From contig CANJPY010000034.1 in the NCBI GenBank assembly GCA_947476255.1, positions 1 to 48,297 on the forward strand: a stretch of 48,297 nucleotides of DNA. The letters run 5' to 3'. Positions 1,390 to 30,464 of the stretch are shown in pieces (the first letter of the stretch is position 1; each line of letters begins with the position of its first letter). The notes beneath the pieces are model-generated. The model was not told the origin of the DNA. It saw only the letters and a list, made by a program, of their open reading frames with translations, and did not search any database. The position numbers and the translations under genes are program-made. The DNA is from Chthoniobacteraceae bacterium. Lineage in GTDB: Bacteria; Verrucomicrobiota; Verrucomicrobiia; Chthoniobacterales; Chthoniobacteraceae.

Positions 1390-2049
1390 TCACGGGAGAG
1401 ATTCCCGAGCGAAGCGAATGGCCACTTCCAGCAAGCGGTCTCGCGTTTCGAGACCCAGTTTGCTGCGAATGTTTCCCCGGTGGGCTTCGACTGTTTTCAA
1501 GCTTAAGGAAAGACGTTTCGAGATGGCTTCCGAACTGAGGCCTGTACCGATGAGGGAAAGAACTTCTAGTTCCCTGTTGGTGAGGGATTGAAAACTCGGC
1601 CTGAGATTGTCTGGCAATCGATTGAGGGCGGGAGTGGTCATCTCCCCTAAAAAACGCTCACTGAGATAGATTCGTCCCTGAAGAACTTGATCAAGCGCCT
1701 CCAGAATCTTTTGAGCGGCATCGCTTTTCATGATGTAGCCGTGCGCGCCCGCGCGGAGAGAGCGTTCGGCATAAATCATTTCGTCGTGCATCGAGAGAAC
1801 AAGGACTCTCAGTTGAGGGACGAGGGCGGTTGTTTCGCGTATGAGATCCAAGCCCATGCGGTTTCCGAGTGAGATGTCTAAAATCATCGCATCCGGACGT
1901 GTGGTGGAAACAAGCTGGAAGGCCTCGCCCCACGTTGAGGCTTCGCCACAGACGCGGAACCTCTCCTCCTCGGCAATCAGGCGTGAGACTCCCTGGCGAA
2001 CAATGGGGTGGTCGTCCACGATCAGAATGTTGGATACAAGACGAGTCAT
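1390..2049 (-). CDS. NarL/FixJ-family response regulator (REC-LuxR HTH)
   Basis: A two-component transcription regulator of about 219 residues. The receiver domain (1-125) has the acidic pair in ILIVDDHP, the phosphoacceptor Asp in MILDISL, the Ser of VLSMHDE and the Lys of GYIMKSDA. The LuxR-type helix-turn-helix occupies about 150-210 (LTNRELEVLSLI...KTVEAHRGNIRSKL). The frame is open to 2118, but I chose the ATG at 2049 because it lies 20 bp after the kinase stop and starts directly before the REC fold; the longer form would overlap the kinase by 49 bp. It is the last gene of the six-gene operon and is the natural partner of the upstream HisKA_3 kinase. Its receiver clearly resembles the one fused to the glycosyltransferase at 7305-8777. 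Confidence 0.93.
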   Translation of the reverse strand: MTRLVSNILIVDDHPIVRQGVSRLIAEEERFRVCGEASTWGEAFQLVSTTRPDAMILDISLGNRMGLDLIRETTALVPQLRVLVLSMHDEMIYAERSLRAGAHGYIMKSDAAQKILEALDQVLQGRIYLSERFLGEMTTPALNRLPDNLRPSFQSLTNRELEVLSLIGTGLSSEAISKRLSLSLKTVEAHRGNIRSKLGLETRDRLLEVAIRFARESLP

Positions 2050-2069
2050 GAGAGAGGAAGCCAACGGTG

Positions 2070-3323
2070 TTATTTGGAACTGAGCAAGGATGGATGGGAG
2101 AGGTGCACATGAATGCACGTCCCCTGACTGGCTTTGGACTCAATGGATAAGCGGCCTCCGATCGAAGCGGTCCTGTATTTCATAATTTCCAGGCCCAGGC
2201 CCTTTCCCGATTTCTCCCGAGGCAGTCCGATCCCGTCGTCCTTGATCGTGAGATCTATGCCCTGTTGGGTGGTCTCGAGCGTGATGGAAATGGCCTTGGC
2301 TCGAGAGTGTTTGAGAGCGTTGCGCACGCTTTCTTGGGTGATTCTGTAAAGATTTGAAGCGATAGAGGATTCTTCGATTTGAACGGAACCGACGATGGAA
2401 AGATTGCAGGTTGCGACGTTGTTGGAGTTCACCCCGTTTACAAGTTCTCTCAATCCGACAACAAGGCCTCCGGGTTCGTCGGGTACTGGGTGGAGGCCGC
2501 GGGTGACGATCCGTGTTTCTTCGATCGAATTGTTGAGCAGTCGACTGATTTGCTCCAGTTGGTGTTCGCTTCCTGCTCTTATCTTTCGATAGAGGCTGCT
2601 TACCATGAGGGAGATGCCAGTGAGTTGCTGGCAGAGTCCGTCGTGCAGGTCCTGTCCGATCCGGCGCTGCTCGCGTTCGCTGATTTCGAGGAGCGAGCGC
2701 TCGAGGTGTTCCCGGTTTAAAATTGCGCGACTGAGTGCAATGGTGCTAGAGAGGTGAAAAAGCACTGCGAGAACGCTGCCTATCCCAATGATCCAAGTGG
2801 TGCGCGCGGAGACTTCCTGCAGGCGTTGAGCGGCTGCGGTCAGGTGTTGATTTTCAACCGCCTCGTTTTGTGCGGTGACTAGCCGAATTTCATCCATCAA
2901 TTTTTTGCCAATCCCCGCAACACCAACGACAGCATCGATTCCCTCTAGTTGGCGCGCCTCGATGGTAATCCGCAGCCGTTCGAGGCGCATTTCAATCAGT
3001 GCTATGAGTCGATTGATAATTTCGGGCGTCACCGTCTGCTTTTCAACTTCGCGCAGTCGAAGAATTCCTTTTTTAACATCGCTCACAGCTTCGGTGTAGA
3101 GTGTCAGATATTCTTCTTTTCCCATGATTACATACCCGCGCGCTTCGCTCTCCGCGCTGACAATGTCTGTAAGGAGGCTTTCCCGCACGTTTGCAAGATG
3201 ATGTGAGCGGGACACTAATTCGGCCGTCGACCGAAACTCGAGGATGCTCAGGTAGGAGAACCAGCCGATGACGACCAGCAAGACGACGATGATGGAAAAA
3301 CCTGAAACGACGCGATGGTTCAT
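2070..3323 (-). CDS. Sensor histidine kinase, CHASE3-HisKA_3-HATPase
   Basis: A membrane sensor kinase of 417 residues. The first membrane helix is at about 7-27, followed by a periplasmic CHASE3-like sensory helix bundle (30-175, with AESEARGYVIMG), a second membrane helix at about 177-199, a HisKA_3 dimerisation/phosphoacceptor region (REQRRIGQDLHDGLCQQL, His227) and a HATPase_c domain with an N box (RITQESVRNALKH) and G boxes (DDGIGLP, GKGLGLEI). HisKA_3 kinases normally signal to NarL-type receivers. Two such receivers are encoded in this operon: the regulator that follows and the glycosyltransferase fusion that begins it. The start is 2 nt after the aminotransferase stop, which implies translational coupling. 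The signal sensed cannot be read from the sequence. Confidence 0.92.
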   Translation of the reverse strand: MNHRVVSGFSIIVVLLVVIGWFSYLSILEFRSTAELVSRSHHLANVRESLLTDIVSAESEARGYVIMGKEEYLTLYTEAVSDVKKGILRLREVEKQTVTPEIINRLIALIEMRLERLRITIEARQLEGIDAVVGVAGIGKKLMDEIRLVTAQNEAVENQHLTAAAQRLQEVSARTTWIIGIGSVLAVLFHLSSTIALSRAILNREHLERSLLEISEREQRRIGQDLHDGLCQQLTGISLMVSSLYRKIRAGSEHQLEQISRLLNNSIEETRIVTRGLHPVPDEPGGLVVGLRELVNGVNSNNVATCNLSIVGSVQIEESSIASNLYRITQESVRNALKHSRAKAISITLETTQQGIDLTIKDDGIGLPREKSGKGLGLEIMKYRTASIGGRLSIESKASQGTCIHVHLSHPSLLSSK

Positions 3324-3325
3324 AT

Positions 3326-4456
3326 TTAAGCGTGAAGGTCACTTAAAGCCGACACAATGTAATGTATCTCATGTTCTGAAAGATAGGGATGCATAGGAAG
3401 ACTGAGGACTTCGGCGGCGGTGCGTTCGGCCACAGGAAAGGGCCTGCCGCCCGTGTACGCCTTGAATGCCGATTGCTGTGAGAGTGCTCTTGGATAATGA
3501 ATGCCGTATTCTACTCCGTGGTCGTCCAATACACGCCTTAATTGCTCGCGAGCAGCGACCCGTACGACGAATTGATGGAAGACGTGATGGCAGTGTGTTT
3601 GGAGAGAGGGGAGAAGCATTGGAACTGCAATCTTGGCACTGGAAAAAGCCTCTAGATAGGCGCGGGCAAGGGCGCGCCTTTGGTCGTTCCTATGATCAAG
3701 GTCTTTCAGAGCACATCGCAGTATCGCTGCTTGAATTTCGTCCAGTCGGCTGTTGCGGCCCACTTGCGTGGAATTATCCCGTTCCCGCCAACCATACTGG
3801 CGCAGTCGTCGCAACCTCTCGAGAACAGGGGCAGCCATAGAACAGCAGAAGCCTCCGTCTCCGATTCCTCCCAGGTTTTTAGTGGGATAAAAGCTGAATG
3901 CGCCGACGTCCCCCATGGTGCCCGCCATGCGCCATTTCTGGGTTTCTTTCTCCCAGTACCGCACACCATGGGCGTGTGCGCAGTCTTCTACAACCCAGAG
4001 GTTGTGAGCTTTGGCGACGCCAAGAATGGGCGTCATGTCATCCACCCCTCCAAACAGGTGGACTACCACAACGGCGCGAGTGCGCGCAGTGAGCAAAGCG
4101 CGCGCTTGTGCGAGATCCAGTCCAAAATCAGGCGTGATGTCCACCAATACTGGCGTGGCGCCTGTTGCGATGATCGCGCTGGCCGTTGCGCTTGGAGCGA
4201 AGGCCGGTACCAACACTTCGTCGCCTGTCTGAATTCCGCCGGCCATTAAGCCGAGTGTGATAGCGTCCGTTCCCGAGCCGACTCCGACTCCTGAAGAAAG
4301 TCCCAAGAAAGCGCTGAATTCCCTCTCAAAAGCTTCGACTTCGCTGCCAAGCACAAATTTACCAGCGTTCAAAACTCTCCCGATTGCATTTGTAGCAGCT
4401 TCTTGATGCCGCGCCTCGTGAACCCACAAGCGTGTTAAGGGAATTTTAGTTTTCAT
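3326..4456 (-). CDS. DegT/DnrJ/EryC1/StrS-family sugar aminotransferase
   Basis: A PLP-dependent aminotransferase (376 residues) of the family that converts keto nucleotide sugars to amino sugars for surface glycans. The PLP-binding Lys is K193 in SFYPTKNLGGIGD, and the ring-binding Asp is D158 in VVEDCAHAHG. The GSGTDAITLGL stretch (about 60-70) is the usual phosphate-binding region. The frame is open further upstream, but the ATG at 4456 is the right start: it overlaps the stop of the upstream epimerase as ATGA, and the N-terminal PLTR segment is typical. The sugar substrate cannot be deduced; the neighbouring SDR enzyme is a likely partner in the same pathway. Confidence 0.92.
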   Translation of the reverse strand: MKTKIPLTRLWVHEARHQEAATNAIGRVLNAGKFVLGSEVEAFEREFSAFLGLSSGVGVGSGTDAITLGLMAGGIQTGDEVLVPAFAPSATASAIIATGATPVLVDITPDFGLDLAQARALLTARTRAVVVVHLFGGVDDMTPILGVAKAHNLWVVEDCAHAHGVRYWEKETQKWRMAGTMGDVGAFSFYPTKNLGGIGDGGFCCSMAAPVLERLRRLRQYGWRERDNSTQVGRNSRLDEIQAAILRCALKDLDHRNDQRRALARAYLEAFSSAKIAVPMLLPSLQTHCHHVFHQFVVRVAAREQLRRVLDDHGVEYGIHYPRALSQQSAFKAYTGGRPFPVAERTAAEVLSLPMHPYLSEHEIHYIVSALSDLHA

Positions 4457-5508
4457 TCGATGCGTCTTTGGGGAGTACCTTGGCGCAGTTCGCTGAGCGC
4501 GTCCCAAGTCATGCGGAGACCTTCCTCGAGGCGGATCTGAGGCGTCCATCCGAGGCGGGTGCGGATTTTCGCGGTGTCTGCCCTGTAGCTTCCAATCGCA
4601 ATACGCTGCAAGCCAGTGGGATATTTCTCCATGCGAACCTTGCTGCCGGTCTTTGACGTTTCAATAAGGAGTCTGGCGATTTCAAAAAGGGAGCGAGCCT
4701 CGCCGCCGCCAAGATTAAAGACCTCTCCAGTTGCAGTATTCGGGTACGAGGCAACACGCACGAACGCATCCACCGCGTCCTCTGCGTAGTTGAGATCTCG
4801 CAACTGGCTCCCGTCGCCGTACACGACAAGGTCTTGAGCGGATAGGAGGCGGCGGATCCATTCTCCTAAAAAAGAGTGCCCCGGCGGAGCCAAGCGCATG
4901 GTGGGACCATAGGTATTGGTCAGGCGCAGGACCGTTGTGCGGAGATTGTGCTGTTTGTAGTACAGAAGATGATGGAGCTCGGAGGTCATTTTGTGGACGC
5001 CATTCGGGTCGAGAGGAGCCAATGGATGGTCTTCCTTCACGGGCAGTGTAATGCAACGTCCGTATACTTGCCGGGTTCCTGCGTAGATCACATGGGCCGA
5101 GGGCGCCCATTTTCTGCAGGCTTCCAAAACCGTAAGGGGAGCGAGTGTATTAGCTGCAATGTCGCCCATGGGATCGAGTACAGAGTCCCAGTGTCCGCAG
5201 CGCCCGCTGAGACTAAATACGACTTCGCATCCGGAGACGATCCGTGCCATAAAGTCCGCATGAGAGCAGTCCCCTTGGTGCCATTCCAGAGAGTGGGCGC
5301 GGAGTTTTTTGGGAGGGATAGGGGCTCGATCCACGGCAACGACAATCGCCTCGAGGGCTTGCAGCTTTGCTGCCAGTGCGCTTCCTAGAAAGCCCGTCGC
5401 GCCTGTGACGAGCACGCGCTTGTTTTTAAAGAAGGCTTTTTCCGTGTCTGCGGAAAAAGCTTCAGGGCCGGGGAGAGTAACGACCGAGGAGGCTTCATTC
5501 ATAGACAC
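4453..5508 (-). CDS. NAD-dependent epimerase/dehydratase (extended SDR)
   Basis: A nucleotide-sugar modifying enzyme of the extended short-chain dehydrogenase family (351 residues from GTG 5508; an ATG two codons later is equally possible). The Rossmann motif GATGFLG is at 36-42 and the catalytic Thr region is YAGTRQVYG (T145). The expected YxxxK is replaced by NGVHK, with Asn169 in place of the catalytic Tyr and Lys173 conserved. From memory, a distinct subgroup of bacterial SDRs has NGINKMAGE at this place, so this is probably a family trait and not a broken enzyme. It is coupled by ATGA to the aminotransferase and starts one base after the stop of the GT-C gene. Confidence 0.88.
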   Translation of the reverse strand: MSMNEASSVVTLPGPEAFSADTEKAFFKNKRVLVTGATGFLGSALAAKLQALEAIVVAVDRAPIPPKKLRAHSLEWHQGDCSHADFMARIVSGCEVVFSLSGRCGHWDSVLDPMGDIAANTLAPLTVLEACRKWAPSAHVIYAGTRQVYGRCITLPVKEDHPLAPLDPNGVHKMTSELHHLLYYKQHNLRTTVLRLTNTYGPTMRLAPPGHSFLGEWIRRLLSAQDLVVYGDGSQLRDLNYAEDAVDAFVRVASYPNTATGEVFNLGGGEARSLFEIARLLIETSKTGSKVRMEKYPTGLQRIAIGSYRADTAKIRTRLGWTPQIRLEEGLRMTWDALSELRQGTPQRRIE

Positions 5509-5509
5509 T

Positions 5510-7318
5510 CTACGGTCCGAGTCTGAGCCTGAATTGGTTTTTCATCCCTTCAACCGTGGCGATCGCTTTTTCGAGTTCGGGAGATTTTGGGTGGTGGACG
5601 ACGCCTTCCTGAAGCACCTCGAGTGCTGAAGTTGTATTCATGGTTTGGAGCAGGGCATCGCAAAGGCGAAGACGGATATCGAGCCGGCTTGGGATGAGTT
5701 GCAGGGCCTCACGATAGGCGTCGATGGCCTCTTGTGAGAGTCTGAGTTGCCTGCAGGAGTCGCCCAGGTTCATTAACAACATAGGGTCGTAGCCAGAGGG
5801 TCTGCATTGTAATCCCATGCGCGCGAAATCATAGGCGCGCTGGGGTTGGTTGCGGTGAAGATTGACGCAGGCCAGATTGGCAAACGCCGGAACAGAGGGA
5901 GCGACTTGGATGGACTGAATGAACGCATCTTCAGACGCCTCCAATTTTCCAGCTTCAAAATATGCCGCGCCCAGATTCAACCAGGGACGCGCCTTTAGTG
6001 GTTTTTTATCACACGCGTCCCTCCACAAGCGCAGAGTCGAAGCCCAAACCTTGCTTCGTGCGAAGGTGGTCGCTGAAAGGCTCAATGTCATCACCACGGC
6101 TATTGCCACGACGACGCCTTGGGAAAATGGGATGCTGCAGACCAACGTTGCTGCAACGAGGCAGAATCCTACCGAGGACAGATAGGTGCGGTGTTCCGCC
6201 ATGCAGTCCGGGAGGGGCACCAGGGAAGAGTCGGGAAGAAGGGTGAGCGCAAACCAAAGCGCTCCCACAAAGATGGCTCCGTTTGTGGCTCGTCTCAATG
6301 GTTGTGTGTACGACCACGCCGCGGCTCCGAATAGGAATACAAGACTGAGTGACGCGCCCCAAAAACGGACATCTGTCAGATTTTTTACAAGAGCCACATC
6401 GGGGTCGATGTTTAATCCGACCGGCCAGGCGAGGAGGCCCAGGTAGCGCAGCCAGACGCTTGGTTGCGTCAGTGCGTAGTGCACACCATAGGCAGGGTCG
6501 GCGCTGTTGGAGGCAATGTTCACAACGGAGCCTCCCGTGAGGGCGCCAGTCTGCGCATAACTCACCGCGGCGAGGAGCAGTGGAAGGATGGGGAGCAGAA
6601 CAAGCAGACTTCGCGCCCTCCAGCATGCCTGTCGCAGGGGTGTTTGAAAGGCGGCAACGTCGAGCGCCACGGCGAGTACTGGAACCGTGACACCCGTTTC
6701 TTTGGAAAACATCGCTCCCAGAGCGCAGAGCACCGAAGCGGTTCGCCAAAGCCCGCTAGAGCGGGTGGTGGCTTCAATGTGGGCGATCAAGGCGCACAGG
6801 TAAAACAGGGTGCACAGGGAAGTCGCACGCTGGATGATGTAGATCACCGACTCGATTTGTAGTGGGTGGACGAAAAAGAGCAGGCAGCTCAAAGAAGGAA
6901 TCAGGTGCCGGGCCCTGGGAACCGCGGCCTGCAGGGCCCCGCTTTTAAGTACCAAGAGGTGTGCCAGATACCACACGAGGAGCGCATTGGCGGAGTGAAT
7001 GGCGATGTTTACAAAGCGGAAGCCCCAAGGGTTTAACGCGCCTAACCGGTAGTTCCAATGGAAGCTTAAATAAGTCAAAGGTCGCATCAGGAAGTTTGTA
7101 GACACATCTCCCTCGATGCCCAATTTTGAGGCCATGGTGGCAACGCCTTTGAAGTTGTAGAAAATCGCTTTGAAGTTTTGCGCGTCTTTAAAGATCGGGT
7201 TTTCTCGAAGGTAGATCTCATCGTCAAAAACCATCGGGTAATCGAGGGAACCCCGGAAAAGAACCGTTCCTAAAACGCCTAACAGCAGGCAGACGCAAAA
7301 TATCTCAATGCGTTTCAT
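5510..7318 (-). CDS. GT-C-type membrane glycosyltransferase with C-terminal TPRs (TMTC-like)
   Basis: A large multi-pass membrane protein of 602 residues. The first membrane helix is followed by VFDDEIYLRENP (D32, D33), the acidic first-loop motif of GT-C glycosyltransferases that use lipid-linked sugars. About ten hydrophobic segments follow to about residue 420, then roughly four tetratricopeptide repeats (about 450-600, such as NLGAAYFEAGKLEASEDAF). The order resembles the eukaryotic TMTC O-mannosyltransferases and their bacterial relatives. It probably moves a sugar from a polyprenyl carrier to protein or glycan outside the inner membrane (inference). The start at 7318 overlaps the fusion gene by 14 bp, consistent with that gene making its lipid-linked donor. 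Confidence 0.78.
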   Translation of the reverse strand: MKRIEIFCVCLLLGVLGTVLFRGSLDYPMVFDDEIYLRENPIFKDAQNFKAIFYNFKGVATMASKLGIEGDVSTNFLMRPLTYLSFHWNYRLGALNPWGFRFVNIAIHSANALLVWYLAHLLVLKSGALQAAVPRARHLIPSLSCLLFFVHPLQIESVIYIIQRATSLCTLFYLCALIAHIEATTRSSGLWRTASVLCALGAMFSKETGVTVPVLAVALDVAAFQTPLRQACWRARSLLVLLPILPLLLAAVSYAQTGALTGGSVVNIASNSADPAYGVHYALTQPSVWLRYLGLLAWPVGLNIDPDVALVKNLTDVRFWGASLSLVFLFGAAAWSYTQPLRRATNGAIFVGALWFALTLLPDSSLVPLPDCMAEHRTYLSSVGFCLVAATLVCSIPFSQGVVVAIAVVMTLSLSATTFARSKVWASTLRLWRDACDKKPLKARPWLNLGAAYFEAGKLEASEDAFIQSIQVAPSVPAFANLACVNLHRNQPQRAYDFARMGLQCRPSGYDPMLLMNLGDSCRQLRLSQEAIDAYREALQLIPSRLDIRLRLCDALLQTMNTTSALEVLQEGVVHHPKSPELEKAIATVEGMKNQFRLRLGP

Positions 7319-8777
7319 TGCGGTGCGCAGCCTCGATTTCTTGTTGAACACGAGCAATATCCAAGGGTGTTCGCAATTCCCTGTGTTTGATCACGAACTG
7401 GGGCGGTGCGTTGTGGAGCGAGTGGATACGGCCCACATATTCGCCGATGAGTACGAGCAGGGTGAGCGTTGTCGCTCTTTCCGCCCATTCCGAAGCATTC
7501 GCGAGTGGAGGGTTTTGGGTGAATGCGCTTCGCACGTAGAGAAGGAGACTCAGCAGACCGGCAAGCCGGACGGGCCAAATGGAAAAACCGACAAAAAGCC
7601 GCAGCCAGAGGCCGAGTAATTTCTTCCATGTGTACCCGGATCTGCCCCCGCCGCGCTCTTCGTGGAGGCATTCCACGGTGGATATGTTTGCGGTGGCCCG
7701 CAGCAAGAGGGCGTCAAGATAGGGTTCGGGGCCGTTGAATCGGCTCACCTCCTTGATGACCCTAGATGAAAAAACCTTGAAACTAGAGAGATACAGCCCA
7801 GGTGGCTTGCCAAGCACGAGGCTGGCCGTCCAGTTCTGAAGTTTGCTCCCGAGCCTGCGGTAGAGCGGATGCCTTCGGTTTCGATAGCGGGAATAAACAA
7901 GATCAAAGCCAAGCGCAGCCTCGCGCAGGAGTACCTTCACTTCCGAAGGCGGGTTCTGGAGGTCATCGTCCATGAGCACACAATAGTCCCCAGTGGCGTG
8001 CTTGATTCCTGCGATGAGCGCGTTGTGCTCTCCAAAATTGCGCGAAAGTTGTAGGAAATCCACACACGATGGATAGCGGGCCCGCATTTGTGCGCAGATT
8101 TGCTCCGAACCATCGGTGCTCCCATCGTCGACTAAGATGATTTGTAATTGCTCTACAGCTGCCAACTCTCGCAGGAGTTGTTTGCACAGTTTTTCAATCG
8201 TTTCGCGCGAATTATAGACCGGCACAACCACCGACACGGCCCAGTTGCAAAAGGGCTCCGTGCCTTCCGCTTTTTTCTGATTTTCAAAGTTTGGGTGTGC
8301 AACCCTATTTCCTGAAACACGTTTTAAAGATCCGTACGAGAGGCTGTTGAGCGCCCGGTCACTCAAGTAAAATGCCCCGGCTAAAACGCTGTTAATGCCT
8401 TCGACAATCTTTTCGCCCGCATCCCGCTTCATAATGTACCCGTGCGCTCCCGCTTGCATTGCGAGATCGGCATGTGTGAGCTCGTCGTGAATGGAGAGGA
8501 CGATGACCCTCAACCTTGGTTTCTCCCTCAAAAGGGTAATGATCAGGCCTCCCGAGTCTCGCTGTTTGAGGGACCAGTCCACCAAGAGCACATCAGGCAC
8601 GTTCTGGCGAAAGGCTAGAATGGCGTCAGCCTCATTGGATGAATCGCCGCTGACTTCCAGCTCTGCATGCTCGTTGATAAGCGTCACCACGCCGCGGCGT
8701 ACTACCTCGTGGTCATCGACGACAAGAACCTTGGATTTTTTGAAAACTAGTTGTGCACTGTCATTAGGGGGGGGCAT
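7305..8777 (-). CDS. Receiver domain fused to GT2 polyprenyl-phosphate glycosyltransferase
   Basis: The first gene of the operon, 490 residues. Residues 15-135 form a complete NarL-type receiver: acidic pair D21/D22, phosphoacceptor D67 in LLVDWSL, S95 and K117 in GYIMKRDA. The LuxR helix-turn-helix that normally follows is absent. After a linker (about 140-178) comes a GT2 domain (180-345) with VVVPVYNS, the nucleotide-binding VDDGSTD (217-221) and the metal-binding MDDDLQNPP (270-272). The C-terminus has two membrane helices (about 390-415 and 433-450) and IGEYVGRIH, as in ArnC/GtrB/DPM1 enzymes that make polyprenyl-phosphate sugars. No Met occurs between residues 116 and 231, so the two parts are unlikely to be separate genes. 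The start has no Shine-Dalgarno sequence and lies in an A8-TG-C8 context. Confidence 0.9.
   Translation of the reverse strand: MPPPNDSAQLVFKKSKVLVVDDHEVVRRGVVTLINEHAELEVSGDSSNEADAILAFRQNVPDVLLVDWSLKQRDSGGLIITLLREKPRLRVIVLSIHDELTHADLAMQAGAHGYIMKRDAGEKIVEGINSVLAGAFYLSDRALNSLSYGSLKRVSGNRVAHPNFENQKKAEGTEPFCNWAVSVVVPVYNSRETIEKLCKQLLRELAAVEQLQIILVDDGSTDGSEQICAQMRARYPSCVDFLQLSRNFGEHNALIAGIKHATGDYCVLMDDDLQNPPSEVKVLLREAALGFDLVYSRYRNRRHPLYRRLGSKLQNWTASLVLGKPPGLYLSSFKVFSSRVIKEVSRFNGPEPYLDALLLRATANISTVECLHEERGGGRSGYTWKKLLGLWLRLFVGFSIWPVRLAGLLSLLLYVRSAFTQNPPLANASEWAERATTLTLLVLIGEYVGRIHSLHNAPPQFVIKHRELRTPLDIARVQQEIEAAHRNETH
8767..8774 (-). repeat. C8 tract directly after the start codon of the REC-GT2 gene
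   Basis: On the coding strand the gene begins ATG followed by eight C and then TAATGA. With eight C the frame reads M-P-P-P-N-D. With nine C the fifth codon becomes TAA; with seven the frame meets TAG after a few codons. The tract therefore could act as an on/off switch by strand slippage. Other G8/C8 runs exist in the window (for example 41306-41313 inside thiL), so length alone proves nothing. Confidence 0.6.
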
Positions 8778-17810: not shown

Positions 17811-19682
17811 TTAGTTTACGGGTTCCGGACCCGCTTCGGGAAAATGAATCCCCTCAGCCAGAAGGACTTCGAAAACATGCTGCAGCAGGGTGCGGTAGTG
17901 TTGTTGAACCACCAGGTCTCGCGCCTCCTGTTGCAGGGCTAGATAGTCCTCGTAGTCGTCCTTCAACTTGAACCCAAGCAGTGTACGAAGTTGGGTAGAG
18001 GCATCAGGCGGGACTGAGTTCGAGATGAGTCCGCTGCTGGCAGCGCGCTCCTCGCTGTCCAGCGTGAGTTCGTCGATCCGTGCTTTGAGCTCCGCATTGC
18101 GGGATTCGAGTTGCTGGTTCAAACGCATCAATTCTTCGGTCGACAACTCTCCGGGTACGACAACGGGCGCCGGGCGCTCGTTCCTGCGCGCGCGCCGAGG
18201 ATCATCTTCGCGTTGACGGAGTTGCTTTTGAGTCGAGGCCAGTTCGCCGCGAAGGCCCGCCACGTAATTGTCGATCTGCCGGAGAGTGTCCTGGAGATTG
18301 AAAGCAGACTGCACGCTTCCGCGCCGGTTCGTGTGCGTCGGTTGCTGCGGGGCCCCGTGGTGTGGCACTGTTTTTGAAACGTAGACAGGACGCTGCTTGT
18401 GTTTGGAAGGGGTTTCAGCCTCATCCTGCTCGTCGTCGTTGTCGTCTTCATCCTCGTCGTCATCGTCTGACTCTGAATTCGTAGGACGCTCCTTCGCGCG
18501 GTCCTCTGCGGAGGGGAGGGAAGACTCTGTCTGGTTGGGCTGGTCTTGGTCTTCTGAATCTTGTTCGCCTGACTGCTCCGGCTTTTCAGCGGTGCTTTTT
18601 TGTCTGGAGTCAGCCTGTTTTGACGCGTGGTTTTTGAAGCCCTCGGTCCATGAATCAGGAAGGGGTGAAACTTCTTTGCGCAGCGCAGCCTGCCACTTGC
18701 CGCTCCAGCGGGAAATGCCCTTTAAAATTAGAGTTTCCAAAGCTTCTGGAAGCCTCGTAAGGCGTTCCGCCGCCGCCGCCCATTTGAGAATGCTCAGTTG
18801 GGCGATTGGTGCTTGCGGCGCATGAAAGGCACCATGCAGGGCCGCGAAAACAAGAAGGTCTGCCTCGATGGGCTTGAGGGTTTGGAGTGGGAGTTGAAGC
18901 GCCCAAGCTTTCCCGCGTCCAATGAGCACATTGGCGAAGAGGGCGGGCCCTTTGCCTTCGAGTAAACCTGTTTCCTTGTTTCTGAGAAGTTTAAGGGAGA
19001 GGAGGATCAGTTTTAGCGCTGCACTTTGGTCCACCTTGAACAACCCGCGCGCCAGACTTAAGCGGATTCTCGCCGCCTGTTCTCCCTGCGCTCTGGCGAG
19101 ACCAGCCAAAAACTGCGAGCGGAAGGAAGGCTTCATCTCGGGCCATGCGGCCGCCGTCGCTTGCACGCTCACAATCCACGGCAGCGAGGGAGTCGCGGCA
19201 ACTGCTTTTGCAACATCAACCCTTCCTCCGAGAAGCGCTTCTTTGAGAACCGCTACCGCCTCACTTTCTTCCTCACTGTTGAGTCGCCCCCTCCGCGCAC
19301 GCTCCGCGAAGTCTTCCAAGGAACCGAGCTCGTAATTGACGGGCTCAAGCGCTTGGTCGGAGGCCGAATGAATGTCTTCCTCACTGTTTGCGCTCGAAGA
19401 ATCCTGCTCGTGCTCGTGGTCTGACCCGCCTGTCTGTAAGTTTTGCTCGTGACCTTTGGTTGGGGCATTCTCCGTGTCCGAGCGGACCTCGCTGACCTCG
19501 CGGCCTTCGTGCCGTGCTTCGGGATCGCGCGGAAGCGTTGTGTCTGAAACCGCGTCGGTGGAAGGTGGCAAGACGGCTTCCGAGGATGCAGCTCCTTGGA
19601 TTTCCGAAGGTTGGGGCTCCGTCACCTTGTGAGGTTCGTTAGGGTCTGTATGGTGCGGCTCCGCAGGAAATGAATTTTCCAT
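17811..19682 (-). CDS. Large acidic protein of unknown function with coiled coil
   Basis: I do not recognise this 623-residue protein. Four parts can be seen. Residues 1-115 are disordered and rich in Pro, Glu, Ser and His. About 118-345 are predicted helical, like an alpha-solenoid, with Leu/Ala-rich stretches (AALKLILLSLKLLRNKE). About 350-445 are strongly acidic and disordered, with runs such as ESDDDDEDEDDNDDEQ. About 470-560 contain helical, coiled-coil-like segments (LMRLNQQLESRNAELKARIDELT), and a short helical end follows (LLGFKLKDDYEDYLALQQEA). No signal peptide or membrane helix is seen, so it is probably cytoplasmic. It stands alone between ribE and carA. A scaffold or nucleoid-associated role is only a guess. 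Confidence 0.75.
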   Translation of the reverse strand: MENSFPAEPHHTDPNEPHKVTEPQPSEIQGAASSEAVLPPSTDAVSDTTLPRDPEARHEGREVSEVRSDTENAPTKGHEQNLQTGGSDHEHEQDSSSANSEEDIHSASDQALEPVNYELGSLEDFAERARRGRLNSEEESEAVAVLKEALLGGRVDVAKAVAATPSLPWIVSVQATAAAWPEMKPSFRSQFLAGLARAQGEQAARIRLSLARGLFKVDQSAALKLILLSLKLLRNKETGLLEGKGPALFANVLIGRGKAWALQLPLQTLKPIEADLLVFAALHGAFHAPQAPIAQLSILKWAAAAERLTRLPEALETLILKGISRWSGKWQAALRKEVSPLPDSWTEGFKNHASKQADSRQKSTAEKPEQSGEQDSEDQDQPNQTESSLPSAEDRAKERPTNSESDDDDEDEDDNDDEQDEAETPSKHKQRPVYVSKTVPHHGAPQQPTHTNRRGSVQSAFNLQDTLRQIDNYVAGLRGELASTQKQLRQREDDPRRARRNERPAPVVVPGELSTEELMRLNQQLESRNAELKARIDELTLDSEERAASSGLISNSVPPDASTQLRTLLGFKLKDDYEDYLALQQEARDLVVQQHYRTLLQHVFEVLLAEGIHFPEAGPEPVN

Positions 19683-25887: not shown

Positions 25888-27336
25888 TCAGCTGAGAATG
25901 GCTTTCACAACCTTGCCGTGGACATCGGTGAGTCGGTATCGTCGGCCTTGAAACTTGTAGGTGAGGGCTTCGTGATCCGTTCCCAGTTGATTCAGAATGG
26001 TGGCTTGCAGATCATGGACGTGCACGCCGTCTTTGATGACATTGTAGCCCAGTTCGTCGGTTTCGCCGTGGATAATGCCGCCTTTCACCCCGCCTCCCGC
26101 CATCCACATCGTAAAGCAGCGTGGGTGATGATCCCTCCCAAAACTCGCAGACAACTTTCCCTGACAATAGTTGGTGCGACCAAATTCGCCGCCCCAAATG
26201 ACAAGTGTGTCCTCTAGCATTCCTCGCTGTTTGAGGTCTTGGATCAGAGCCGCGCACCCTCGGTCAGTTTCGCGGCATAATTTTGGAATCGCACCGGGGA
26301 TGCCTCCGTGATGGTCCCAGTCTTGATGGTAGAGTTGGATGAAACGAACGCCTTTCTCCGCGAGGCGCCTCGCCTGGAGACAGTTTGCGGCGAAGGTGCC
26401 CGGAGTTTTCGACTCGGGGCCGTAAAGTTCAAACGTCGATTCGCTTTCCGAGGCGACATCCGTGACCTCCGGGATGCTGCTTTGCATCCGGTAGGCCATT
26501 TCATAATTGGCGATTCTTGCCTGAATTCCAGGTTCGACCCCAGACGCTTCCATCTGGTGCGCATGCAACTCTCCGAGGTGGTTGAGCATCAGTCGGCGAC
26601 TCTCGGCAGAAACACCTTGAGGATTGTTTAAGTATAAAACCGGGTCTTTGGACGGCCGGAATTGAAGACCTTGATACTCCGCTGGTAGAAAGCCGCTACC
26701 CCAGAGGTGCGCACCGAGGGGTTGCCCTCCTTTGTCTTTTGTGATCAGAACCACAAAGCTTGGGAGATTACTATTTTCGCTTCCCAAACCGTAACTGAGC
26801 CAGGCCCCCATGCTGGGGCGGCCCGGAATTTGGGAACCTGTTTGCAGAAACGTCACACCAGGACCATGGTTGATGGATTCGGTGAACATCGACCTGATGA
26901 TGCACAGCTCTCCAGCCACTTCTGCGGTGTTCGGGAGGTGTTCTCCAAACCACGCGCCTGCAGGGCCGTGCTGAGAAAACTTAAAAGGGGATCCCACCAT
27001 CGGTATGGAGGACTGATTGCCTGACATTCCTGTGAGGCGCTGGCCGCCGCGCACGGAATCGGGAAGCTGTTCTCCGTGCCGCTTGATGAGTTCGGGTTTG
27101 TAATCCAAGAGATCCAACTGCGAGGGACCGCCGGACATAAAAAGATAAATAACCCGTTTTGCTTTAGCCGCGAAATGAGGAAGCCCACGGATGGCTTTTG
27201 CAGGTTCGGTTGCCGAGACTTGGTGCGCGCCGAGCATTTCAGCAAGTGCGAGACCGCCGAGGCCGATCCCCGAGCTTTGTAAAAAATGGCGGCGAGGAAG
27301 CAACGGGTTCATGGATGAGACGGAGGTCGGTTGCAT
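25888..27336 (-). CDS. DUF1501 family protein, Tat-exported
   Basis: A 482-residue member of the DUF1501 (sulfatase-like fold) family, abundant in Planctomycetes and Verrucomicrobia and nearly always paired with a DUF1549/DUF1553 cytochrome. The N-terminus has a Tat-like signal, PRRHFLQSSGIGLGGLALAE. Characteristic stretches are YLFMSGGPSQLDLLDYKPE, HGPGVTFLQTGSQIPGRPSMGAW, YHQDWDHHGGIP, VIWGGEFGRTNY and GRDHHPRCFTMWMAGGGVKGG. The role is unproven; an extracytoplasmic role in carbohydrate breakdown is usually supposed. The ATG at 27336 lies 2 nt after the stop of its partner, so the two are translationally coupled; a second ATG lies at 27312. Confidence 0.93.
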   Translation of the reverse strand: MQPTSVSSMNPLLPRRHFLQSSGIGLGGLALAEMLGAHQVSATEPAKAIRGLPHFAAKAKRVIYLFMSGGPSQLDLLDYKPELIKRHGEQLPDSVRGGQRLTGMSGNQSSIPMVGSPFKFSQHGPAGAWFGEHLPNTAEVAGELCIIRSMFTESINHGPGVTFLQTGSQIPGRPSMGAWLSYGLGSENSNLPSFVVLITKDKGGQPLGAHLWGSGFLPAEYQGLQFRPSKDPVLYLNNPQGVSAESRRLMLNHLGELHAHQMEASGVEPGIQARIANYEMAYRMQSSIPEVTDVASESESTFELYGPESKTPGTFAANCLQARRLAEKGVRFIQLYHQDWDHHGGIPGAIPKLCRETDRGCAALIQDLKQRGMLEDTLVIWGGEFGRTNYCQGKLSASFGRDHHPRCFTMWMAGGGVKGGIIHGETDELGYNVIKDGVHVHDLQATILNQLGTDHEALTYKFQGRRYRLTDVHGKVVKAILS

Positions 27337-27338
27337 GG

Positions 27339-30300
27339 TTATTGTTTTACGACGGAGCCATCGTGATTCAGGAGCGCCTGCGCGAGAATGGTGGCTGCAG
27401 CGACTTCCGCCACTGGCAGTGCCTTGTCGACCGGAGCTTGACCCACGGTCAACAAAGCTTTCGCATCTTCTTGGTGGGCTTTAAAATGATGGAGTTGTTC
27501 GTTGTAGAGTGTGGTGAGAATCGCTTTCTCTCTGGCATCTGGAAAACGAGAAAGGCATGCCAAAAACGCTTCCTCTATCAAACCCGCAAGATTTTCTCCG
27601 TAAGTCTTTTGGAGGCGCTCTCCAAGCACCCGCGCGGCTTCCACGTATTGAGTGCCGTTGAGAAGGACTAGCGCTTGGAGTGGAGTGTTGGTGCGTTCCC
27701 TTTTTGCGGAGCAAACCGCACGACGCGCGGAGTCAAAAGCCATCATTGCAGGGGGAGGGGACGTCCTGCGCCAGCGTGTGTAGAGGCTGCGCCTCAAACT
27801 TCCTTCCCCTTTATCCGCTGGAGTTGGGCGAAATGCCTCGGAGCTCTCGTACGGATTTACGGGCGAGCCTCCCATTTTGCCACTCAGCAGACCGCTTGCA
27901 CTTAGAAATGTGTCGCGCACCGCCTCTGCTGGAAGCCTGAAACGAGATCCACGAGCCAGCAGCACGTTCTCCGGATCATCTGCGGTCAATTCAGGCAAAC
28001 CAAGGCTGTCCTGCTTGTAAGTCTGTGACATGACAATCCCTTTCAGCAGCGCTTTGACATCCCACCCGTTCTGAATGAATTCTGTGGCGAGGGTATCAAG
28101 GACCTCTTGATATTCTGGCGGCGTACCTTGGCTCCCAAAATCGTCTGACGTCCGAACCAAACCTCTCCCGAAAAGAGACTGCCAAAAACGGTTGACTGTT
28201 ACTCTCGCCAACAGTGGGTGCTCCGGCGAGGTAAGCCAGCGGGCGAGGCCAAGGCGGTTTCGGGGGGAATCGGCTGGGAATTTTGGAAGAGACGCTGGTG
28301 TGTCCGCGAATACCTCCTCCCGCCGCTGGTCGTACTGTCCGCGGAATAAAACGAAGGCCTTTTTGGGCTTCGGTAGATCGTTCATCACCGATATTTCGGG
28401 CTGCGATTCCAAGAGCTTCAGGACGGCGTTGCGCGCGTCTTTCAAGGCATGAAGTGCCTCCCTGCGTGAGTCAGGCGGCGTCGCCAATAAGAATGTCTCC
28501 AAAAGGCGATCTCTCTCGAGGGGCGACAAGTTATCGGACGCCTTTGTCCACAGCAGATCCGCTTCCTGTGGCGCAAATGTCGCTGCGACTTCCAGCGCCG
28601 ACAGTTCTCTTTCGAAAATGCGAAGATCATCAATCAGGCCATTCTTAAAACCCCGGTCTCGCATGCGGGCACCGAGAGTGATGTTCTCCCTCCCGGGCGT
28701 TATATCCCGTGAGAGGTTGTCTTTAATGACCTCGGTTTGAGCTGCATTTCCATTGATGAAAATACGCAGGCCGGATGCTTTGCCCGAACCATCCGATGTT
28801 ATTGCAACATGAGTCCAGCTGCCGGGAACCAAAAGGGTTGTTGTTCGAATGGAGGCTGCATCTCCCGGCCAGAAACGCACGAGTGACCACTTGAGCCGGC
28901 CGTCTTCGAGGAGCAATTCAAAGCCCCGGCTTGCCGCGTCGGTCCAGGCCTTCGAACGATGTAGAATCACTGCGCGTTCTTTTGGCTCTGGCGTTTGGAT
29001 CCAAAGAGAAACGGTGAATGGATCACTTCTATTAAAGCTTCCAACAGGCAAAGTAAGCTCATCATCTCCAGAAAGTTGAACGGCTGCGGTGTCTACGGAG
29101 CGGCCCGCGACGCTTTTGTTTTCACCCGAGAGAGCGGCCGTTTTTTTTGAGTCGATCAGGTTCGTGAGTTTATTGTCTCCAATCTTAGCGGAGTGGAATC
29201 GTCCGATTTCATTCGGAATCGCAAAGAGCGCCGTCCTCTGCTTCAACCATGCCTCAAAGCTCGCCCGAGCGTTGCTATCGGCTTCCGTTAAGGCGGTCTC
29301 AGCTTGCGCGACGACACGCTGAAGCTCTTTCAGTTTTGTTTGTGTTTCCGGAGAGAGCAGTCGAATGGCAGGAGTGGGGGCATCGCCGGTGAAAAATGAG
29401 TAGAGACCCGCTTCATCGATGTCATCGAAGAACGCAAACATCTGATAAAATTCCTTTTGCGAGATTGGATCAAATTTATGGTCGTGGCATTTTGCGCATT
29501 CAAAGGTGAGGCCGAGGAAAGCGGTTGCGAATGTCTGAACGCGGTCGGCAACGTATTCGACTCGGTATTCCTCTTCGACAGATCCTCCCTCGGCTTCCTG
29601 TTGATGAAGACGGTTAAAAGACGTGGCTAAAACTTGTTCTTCCGTTGGAGTTGGCAAAAGATCGCCCGCAAGCTGCCAGGTCACAAAATCATTAAAAGGC
29701 AGGTTTCGGTTGAGCGCGTTCACAACCCAGTCCCGCCAAGGCCATACAGCTCTATCCCGATCTACTTGAAACCCATAGCTGTCAGCATATCTAGCGACGT
29801 CGAGCCAGTCGGAGGCCCAGCGTTCGCCGAAAGAGGAGGATTTTAAAAGGCGGTCAACGGCACTCTCGTAAGCGTCAGGTTGGTTGTCTGCAAGATAGGC
29901 GCGGACGTCTGCGGGAGAGGGCGGGAGACCGGTAAGGTCAAGGGTGACGCGGCGAAGAAGGCGATCCGGGGTGGCCTGCGGTCTCTGTGTTATTCCTCTA
30001 GATTTCAGGCGTTTTTGTATGAGCTTGTCTATCTTGGTGGACAGAGGATCCAACTGCGCTTTCTCCTGCTTTGGGGAGATAAAAGACCAGAGAGGTTGGT
30101 ATTCTGCTCCTTCAGAGACCCAGCGCCGGAGCGTTTCAATTTCGGCTTTGGAGAGTGGTTCGAGTTTTGCCTCGGGTGGAGGCATGACCTCGTCCTTGTC
30201 TGTGCTGCGGATCCGAGAGAGAATTTGGCTGCCGTCGGGATTTCCAGGACTGAGGGGAATGTCCCCACTCTTGGCGGGCTTGAGGGCGGCGTCTCGCAGG

Positions 30301-30464
30301 TCGAGGCGCAGACCTGCTTTCCGATGGCCACTGTCAGGACCGTGGCAGCCGAAGCATTTGTCGGAGAGAATGGGGCGTATATCCCTGTTAAATTCCAGCG
30401 GCGCAGCGCTCAATGGCCCGGAGGTTAGTCCGAGAAAAAGTACAAACTGTGTGAGTAATTTCAT
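27339..30464 (-). CDS. PSCyt1-DUF1549-LamG-DUF1553 (PSD1) protein
   Basis: A 1041-residue exported protein typical of PVC bacteria. A signal peptide (1-21) is followed by the Planctomycete cytochrome C domain with one heme motif, CFGCH (37-41). DUF1549/PSCyt2 follows (about 135-340, with DLTGLPPSPADVRAYL, FGERWASDWLDVARYADSYG and CAKCHDHKFDPIS, a second CxxCH). A LamG/concanavalin-like domain lies at about 445-610 (FTVSLWIQTPEPKERAV, LVPGSWTHVAITSDGSG), and DUF1553/PSD1 at about 700-990 (VNRFWQSLFGRGLVRTSDDFG, SRRAVCSAKRERTNTPLQALVLLN). The LamG domain suggests glycan or protein binding. It heads a two-gene operon with the DUF1501 gene. The electron partners and substrate are not known. Confidence 0.94.
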   Translation of the reverse strand: MKLLTQFVLFLGLTSGPLSAAPLEFNRDIRPILSDKCFGCHGPDSGHRKAGLRLDLRDAALKPAKSGDIPLSPGNPDGSQILSRIRSTDKDEVMPPPEAKLEPLSKAEIETLRRWVSEGAEYQPLWSFISPKQEKAQLDPLSTKIDKLIQKRLKSRGITQRPQATPDRLLRRVTLDLTGLPPSPADVRAYLADNQPDAYESAVDRLLKSSSFGERWASDWLDVARYADSYGFQVDRDRAVWPWRDWVVNALNRNLPFNDFVTWQLAGDLLPTPTEEQVLATSFNRLHQQEAEGGSVEEEYRVEYVADRVQTFATAFLGLTFECAKCHDHKFDPISQKEFYQMFAFFDDIDEAGLYSFFTGDAPTPAIRLLSPETQTKLKELQRVVAQAETALTEADSNARASFEAWLKQRTALFAIPNEIGRFHSAKIGDNKLTNLIDSKKTAALSGENKSVAGRSVDTAAVQLSGDDELTLPVGSFNRSDPFTVSLWIQTPEPKERAVILHRSKAWTDAASRGFELLLEDGRLKWSLVRFWPGDAASIRTTTLLVPGSWTHVAITSDGSGKASGLRIFINGNAAQTEVIKDNLSRDITPGRENITLGARMRDRGFKNGLIDDLRIFERELSALEVAATFAPQEADLLWTKASDNLSPLERDRLLETFLLATPPDSRREALHALKDARNAVLKLLESQPEISVMNDLPKPKKAFVLFRGQYDQRREEVFADTPASLPKFPADSPRNRLGLARWLTSPEHPLLARVTVNRFWQSLFGRGLVRTSDDFGSQGTPPEYQEVLDTLATEFIQNGWDVKALLKGIVMSQTYKQDSLGLPELTADDPENVLLARGSRFRLPAEAVRDTFLSASGLLSGKMGGSPVNPYESSEAFRPTPADKGEGSLRRSLYTRWRRTSPPPAMMAFDSARRAVCSAKRERTNTPLQALVLLNGTQYVEAARVLGERLQKTYGENLAGLIEEAFLACLSRFPDAREKAILTTLYNEQLHHFKAHQEDAKALLTVGQAPVDKALPVAEVAAATILAQALLNHDGSVVKQ

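Follow-up and report, generated by a model that had tools for sequence, protein, structure and literature searches.

A receiver domain fused to a predicted ArnC/GtrB-like polyprenyl-phosphate glycosyltransferase in uncultured Verrucomicrobia

Undecaprenyl phosphate and nucleotide sugars are common to the envelope pathways, and how the flux into each pathway is set is an open question according to the accessible part of PMC12802240. In the same text, the phosphorylated form of EpsW, a single-domain receiver of Myxococcus xanthus, stimulates EpsZ, an effect modelled as stabilization of the EpsZ dimer, and its authors mention small monotopic phosphoglycosyl transferases that have receiver domains. 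Fusions of a receiver (REC) to a glycosyltransferase have also been published, namely the REC-BcsA and REC-REC-BcsA proteins of Methanobacteriaceae (MTH_548) described in the accessible part of PMC5847659. Here, we analyzed contig CANJPY010000034.1 of a Chthoniobacteraceae bacterium (assembly GCA_947476255.1), and we refer to the whole 48,297-nt stretch as the window throughout this manuscript. It contains a gene in which a REC domain is joined to a family-2 glycosyltransferase (GT2) domain predicted to be ArnC/GtrB-like (REC-GT2 fusion, Table 1). A previous interpretation made from the letters of the window (the sequence-only reading) was aware of no characterised example. In the full-text literature, a coverage outside which most subscription papers lie, no description of a receiver joined to an ArnC/GtrB-type enzyme was found; as a general statement the earlier remark was too strong because the REC-glycosyltransferase fusions and the EpsW/EpsZ pair precede it.

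The fusion gene is one uninterrupted frame, and its product combines, as predicted from the sequence, a receiver fold having the full phosphoacceptor set with an enzyme-family output domain in one chain. Response_reg matched residues 17-127 with 61.7 bits (Pfam, cut-off 30.2) and Glycos_transf_2 (PF00535) matched residues 182-303 with 97.2 bits (cut-off 23.3), in agreement with the complete NarL-type receiver (D21/D22, D67, S95, K117) and the GT2 domain with VDDGSTD and MDDDLQNPP motifs that the sequence-only reading had placed on either side of a linker. It had also described the DNA-binding domain as missing after the receiver, and indeed no helix-turn-helix (HTH) family of Pfam matched there; compared by eye with the regulator of the same gene cluster, the fused REC retains the NarL-regulator region past helix 5 that normally leads to the HTH. 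The AlphaFold2 model of the fusion (mean predicted local distance difference test, pLDDT, 88.3) contains the REC fold, a disordered linker whose residues 163-170 have pLDDT values below 50, a GT-A domain, and long C-terminal helices at residues 400-419 and 425-455, which correspond to the two membrane helices proposed earlier. The structural matches of its N-terminal part are NarL-family receivers. In the window's genus, the loop ahead of the second membrane segment and this segment itself (7308-7622) are much shorter than in the fused relatives outside the genus. The translation also confirmed that there is no Met between residues 116 and 231. Non-ATG starts in this range are TTG138, GTG181, GTG183, GTG185 and TTG205, and the homologue L011 has ATG159 and ATG166; on this sequence comparison, production of a separate GT2 from an internal start was rejected, as no start position is common to the six genus genes compared.

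The fusion recurs. It is present in seven of the twelve genomes of the window's genus (one copy is cut by a contig end) and in five genomes outside the genus: G462 and G246 from a class sample of 384 genomes, G531 and G602 from a phylum sample of 387, and G835 from 288 genomes of the class of G602. This amounts to 12 genomes in four family codes. The five come from three other families, one of which lies outside the window's class, and three of the 12 genomes are outside this class. The order of G462 (293 genomes sampled) gave no further fused gene. Four to seven first-look candidates were scored per genome sample, so that the fusion counts may be too low. Scanning the collection contigs with a single protein as the query returned no match, and scanning with an alignment returned 556 loci, 80 of which were kept, comprising six fused genes from genus genomes and 74 loci with a GT2 only. 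None of the 1,143 matching plasmid records covers 80% of the fusion protein. Three loci of this work (L050, L051, L067) come from environmental bins titled Akkermansia muciniphila; two have the genus-type cluster, and the labels are therefore doubtful.

The two halves of the fusion are conserved to the same degree. Pairs of the six genus fusions have mean identities of 0.730 in the REC and 0.726 in the GT2 catalytic part; the linker reaches 0.381 and the membrane part 0.455. In the six pairs for which dN was computed, it spans 0.08-0.20 in the REC and 0.07-0.15 in the catalytic part; most dS values are saturated. The five REC residues named above are identical in the six genus sequences and in all 11 fused RECs compared. 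The acceptor Asp (D67, 8577-8579) is followed by a Trp (W68, 8574-8576), and this Trp is found in 12/12 fused receivers (the 11 compared and that of G835), 0/11 cluster regulators and 0/4 split receivers (see below). Escherichia coli CheY likewise has a Trp after its acceptor Asp.

A second arrangement of the same parts was found in a sister genus (genus code g48), where the cluster of all four genomes encodes a single-domain REC followed by a separate GT2 on the same strand, with gaps of 15, 29, 7 and 17 nt from the REC stop to the assigned GT2 ATG. Response_reg is the sole family matched by these split receivers (76-85 bits), and their phosphoacceptor set is intact in 4/4, with Asp-Glu replacing Asp-Asp in three. 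Fused and split arrangements are equivalent. The fused gene of G246 comes from the same family as the g48 loci; two further genomes of this family gave no match at E 1e-80. Among the 74 GT2-only relatives, a receiver gene lies within 1,500 nt in one, on the opposite strand. More than 1,500 nt of upstream sequence was available for 68 of these 74 relatives, and many of the 74 come from one Alphaproteobacteria group and hence are not independent.

The GT2 part is supported, by sequence and model, as a predicted ArnC/GtrB-like polyprenyl-phosphate glycosyltransferase. Its nearest solved structure is ArnC (phmmer E 5.5e-35), followed by GtrB, and the same two proteins are the top structural matches (Foldseek 1.4e-22 to ArnC). 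The GT-A domain, the Asp-rich metal site and the C-terminal membrane helices are those of the GtrB/ArnC/DPM1 type. The BcsA-like family PF13641 scores 29.6 bits on this domain versus 97.2 bits for PF00535, and thus is not the best family. ArnC proper (undecaprenyl-phosphate 4-deoxy-4-formamido-L-arabinose transferase) was rejected as an assignment, with 127.9 bits against the NCBIfam equivalog cut-off of 529 (NF007986).

The fusion gene leads a cluster on the minus strand in which a membrane protein with tetratricopeptide repeats (TPR protein), a short-chain dehydrogenase/reductase (SDR), a DegT-type aminotransferase, a CHASE3 kinase and a NarL regulator follow in this order (Table 1). HisKA_3-type kinases serve NarL-type receivers. 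We counted the neighbours over 16 loci, 12 fused and 4 split. The kinase and the NarL regulator adjoin 8/12 fused and 4/4 split loci, which, together with the CHASE3-HisKA_3-HATPase composition of the kinase, bears out its earlier nomination as the likely partner of the REC. The TPR protein adjoins 11/12 fused and 4/4 split loci, and the SDR 9/12 and 4/4. Outside the genus, the fused loci of G462, G602 and G835 begin with the kinase and the regulator, followed by REC-GT2 and the TPR protein; the linkage therefore outlasts rearrangement. The five genus genomes that have no fusion likewise gave no TPR membrane protein and no kinase at E 1e-40.

Table 1 Coordinates of the fusion gene, its parts and the genes of its cluster in the window
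Feature	Position	Strand	Remarks
REC-GT2 fusion gene	7305..8777	-	490 aa; ATG at 8777, TGA at 7305-7307; internal stops: 0
REC domain	8370..8738	-	residues 14-136; D21/D22, D67, S95, K117 intact; Trp68 after D67
Linker	8241..8369	-	residues 137-179; variable, in part disordered
GT2 catalytic domain	7623..8240	-	residues 180-385; VDDGS 216-220, DDD 270-272
C-terminal membrane part	7308..7622	-	residues 386-490; two long helices
Multi-helix membrane protein with C-terminal TPRs	5510..7318	-	ATG overlaps REC-GT2 end by 14 nt
NAD-dependent epimerase/dehydratase (SDR)	4453..5508	-	
DegT/DnrJ/EryC1/StrS sugar aminotransferase	3326..4456	-	ATGA overlap with SDR stop
CHASE3-HisKA_3-HATPase sensor kinase, probable phosphodonor	2070..3323	-	
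NarL/FixJ-type transcriptional response regulator, REC + GerE	1390..2118	-	

The TPR protein might tentatively be read as a GT-C-like transferase that uses the lipid-linked sugar. TMTC_DUF1736 matched two of its 22 homologues (best E 0.0039) and did not match the window protein, and its Foldseek search was led by TPR proteins with no GT-C among the matches listed. No flippase gene turned up in the cluster, and no search aimed at flippases was made there or elsewhere. The promoter scan was uninformative, with 4 sites versus 3.9 expected, and the terminator scan gave 20 versus 9.8.

Some features of the neighbouring genes deserve a record of their own. An Asn replaces the expected catalytic Tyr of the YxxxK motif (NG[IV][HN]K) in 14/14 cluster SDRs, those of the window (4453-5508) and of L184, L185, L186-L190, L194, L195 and L039-L042. 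The kinase of G005 (L039 2520-3805) is found in two overlapping frames, reflecting a frameshift or a sequencing error. Elsewhere in the window, a PSCyt1-PSCyt2-PSD1 protein with Laminin_G_3 (27342-30464) adjoins a DUF1501 protein (25891-27336), and a 623-aa frame (17814-19682) has no Pfam match at E 1e-8.

From this architecture and its linkage, we propose a two-component system with two outputs, transcription via the NarL regulator and lipid-linked sugar synthesis via the REC in the GT2, a reading that we regard as fairly probable. The more specific proposition, that this would be the first phosphorylation-switched polyprenyl-phosphate sugar synthase, with one CHASE3 kinase acting at two levels through NarL transcription and through a receiver inside or beside the GT2, seems to us evenly balanced. 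We infer phosphotransfer, the direction of control, the substrate, the acceptor and flipping as follows. The CHASE3 membrane kinase would sense a signal and phosphorylate both the cluster's NarL-type transcription factor and D67 of the GT2-fused receiver. Phosphorylation would alter the receiver surface and thereby change the assembly or the domain arrangement of the GT2, whose activity would probably be raised, so that a polyprenyl-phosphate sugar would be made at the membrane. Activation of the GT2 by the phosphorylated REC is expected by analogy, because phosphorylated EpsW stimulates EpsZ. The sugar would probably be an amino sugar, with the SDR and the aminotransferase preparing it; once flipped, it would be passed by the TPR membrane protein to an acceptor in the periplasm or at the surface, in a GT-C-like step that may follow the three-component logic set out in the accessible part of PMC11127046.

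Several observations weigh against the two-output reading. First, the fusion model has a predicted template modeling score (pTM) of 0.65; therefore, the relative placement of the domains is unsure. Second, the DegT gene adjoins 8/12 fused and 0/4 split loci, and some loci may hence use a sugar of another kind. Third, four fused loci have no kinase. Three of them (G011, G014, G531) are near a contig end, and for that of G246 both kinase and regulator are absent from its 13.3-kb contig; in the G011 genome (88% complete), no kinase relative was found at E 1e-40. Fourth, the closest GT2 that has no REC (G415) keeps the SDR, with the kinase and regulator about 4 kb off and the TPR protein absent, and a more distant relative (G004) has both DegT and the TPR protein; the REC is therefore not needed for the chemistry. 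At last, the split RECs are not sister to the fused RECs in the REC tree.

In this tree, which includes 11 chosen matches from the window's family as comparison receivers, the fused RECs form one clade (100/99; 11 of 37 rows), and a single clade of fused and split RECs was not rejected (p-AU 0.375, approximately unbiased test). A recent duplication of the cluster's NarL regulator was rejected as the source of the REC, since a clade of the genus fused RECs and the genus cluster regulators has a p-AU of 0.008. The best GT2 tree does not unite the fused GT2s in a single clade, and neither such a clade (p-AU 0.205), nor one of the split GT2s (p-AU 0.23), nor one of fused and split GT2s together (p-AU 0.386) was rejected. 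Because these one-clade trees were not rejected, a single origin of the REC/GT2 pairing followed by fission and two separate recruitments are both possible.

Other roles of the REC would account for parts of these data. The long linker, disordered in the model, and the TPR partner encoded alongside in 15/16 loci would suit a phosphate-controlled docking or localisation module that brings the GT2 to the kinase, a pole or a partner such as the TPR protein and leaves the catalytic rate unchanged; we consider this improbable, and the EpsW precedent is in the accessible text a case of stimulated activity (PMC12802240). It is less probable still that the REC serves signalling itself. It would then act as a sink for phosphate or provide feedback, in competition with the NarL regulator for the kinase, and the GT2 would be constitutive or would report the membrane state to the kinase. 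Such a role would not require fusion to an enzyme and would leave the recurrent pairing of the REC with this GT2, fused or adjacent, unexplained, even though kinase, NarL regulator and REC-GT2 cluster together at most of the loci counted above (8/12 fused, 4/4 split) and a phosphate sink, DifD, is described for the EpsW system (PMC12802240, accessible part). It is very unlikely that the REC has no regulatory role, as a passive remnant or as a domain for folding or stability: GT2 relatives presumably work without a REC, as the 74 GT2-only loci suggest, but the REC is conserved like the catalytic domain, with invariant acceptor residues, while the linker drifts. Finally, a frameshift, sequencing error or misassembly joining two genes, for which the two genes of the sister genus might speak, has a negligible probability and is refuted by the recurrence of the fusion in twelve genomes of four families with the same junction after the receiver. 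Neither of the outcomes that the sequence-only reading had named as fatal to it thus applies: the fusion does not come from a frameshift, and its homologues are not always separate genes, though REC and GT2 are separate and adjacent in one sister genus.

At this locus, a receiver is wired into the enzyme predicted to commit the lipid carrier; in the split loci it lies directly beside this enzyme. If the two-output reading is true, an ArnC/GtrB-type enzyme joins the list of two-component outputs, and some uncultured Verrucomicrobia may adjust surface-sugar synthesis directly, besides through genes. The naturally fused and split versions allow a comparison, and the control is testable with three purified proteins.

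Compared with known systems, the GT2 part shares its fold and catalytic motifs with ArnC, GtrB and dolichyl-phosphate mannose synthase, enzymes that have no receiver. Its pairing with a multi-helix membrane protein resembles the GtrB and GT-C pairs of three-component periplasmic glycosylation, as far as the accessible part of PMC11127046 describes them. For the other precedents, the comparison likewise follows the accessible text of each source. The MTH_548-type REC-BcsA proteins similarly join a receiver to a family-2 glycosyltransferase and have a narrow lineage range; they are archaeal, with a BcsA-like (PF13641) glycosyltransferase and one or two RECs, and are set apart by this description from the ArnC/GtrB-like protein found here (PMC5847659). 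The small monotopic phosphoglycosyl transferases also have a receiver and a polyprenyl-phosphate glycan-initiating enzyme in one chain, with a different enzyme fold (PMC12802240). In M. xanthus, EpsZ belongs to the large monotopic phosphoglycosyl transferases and not to the GT2 enzymes, and the Dif chemosensory kinase drives EpsW, which is a protein of its own. Nevertheless, as would be the case here, the receiver addresses an undecaprenyl-phosphate-charging glycan enzyme post-translationally, and the split loci, with a single-domain REC beside the enzyme, reproduce the EpsW-EpsZ arrangement (PMC12802240).

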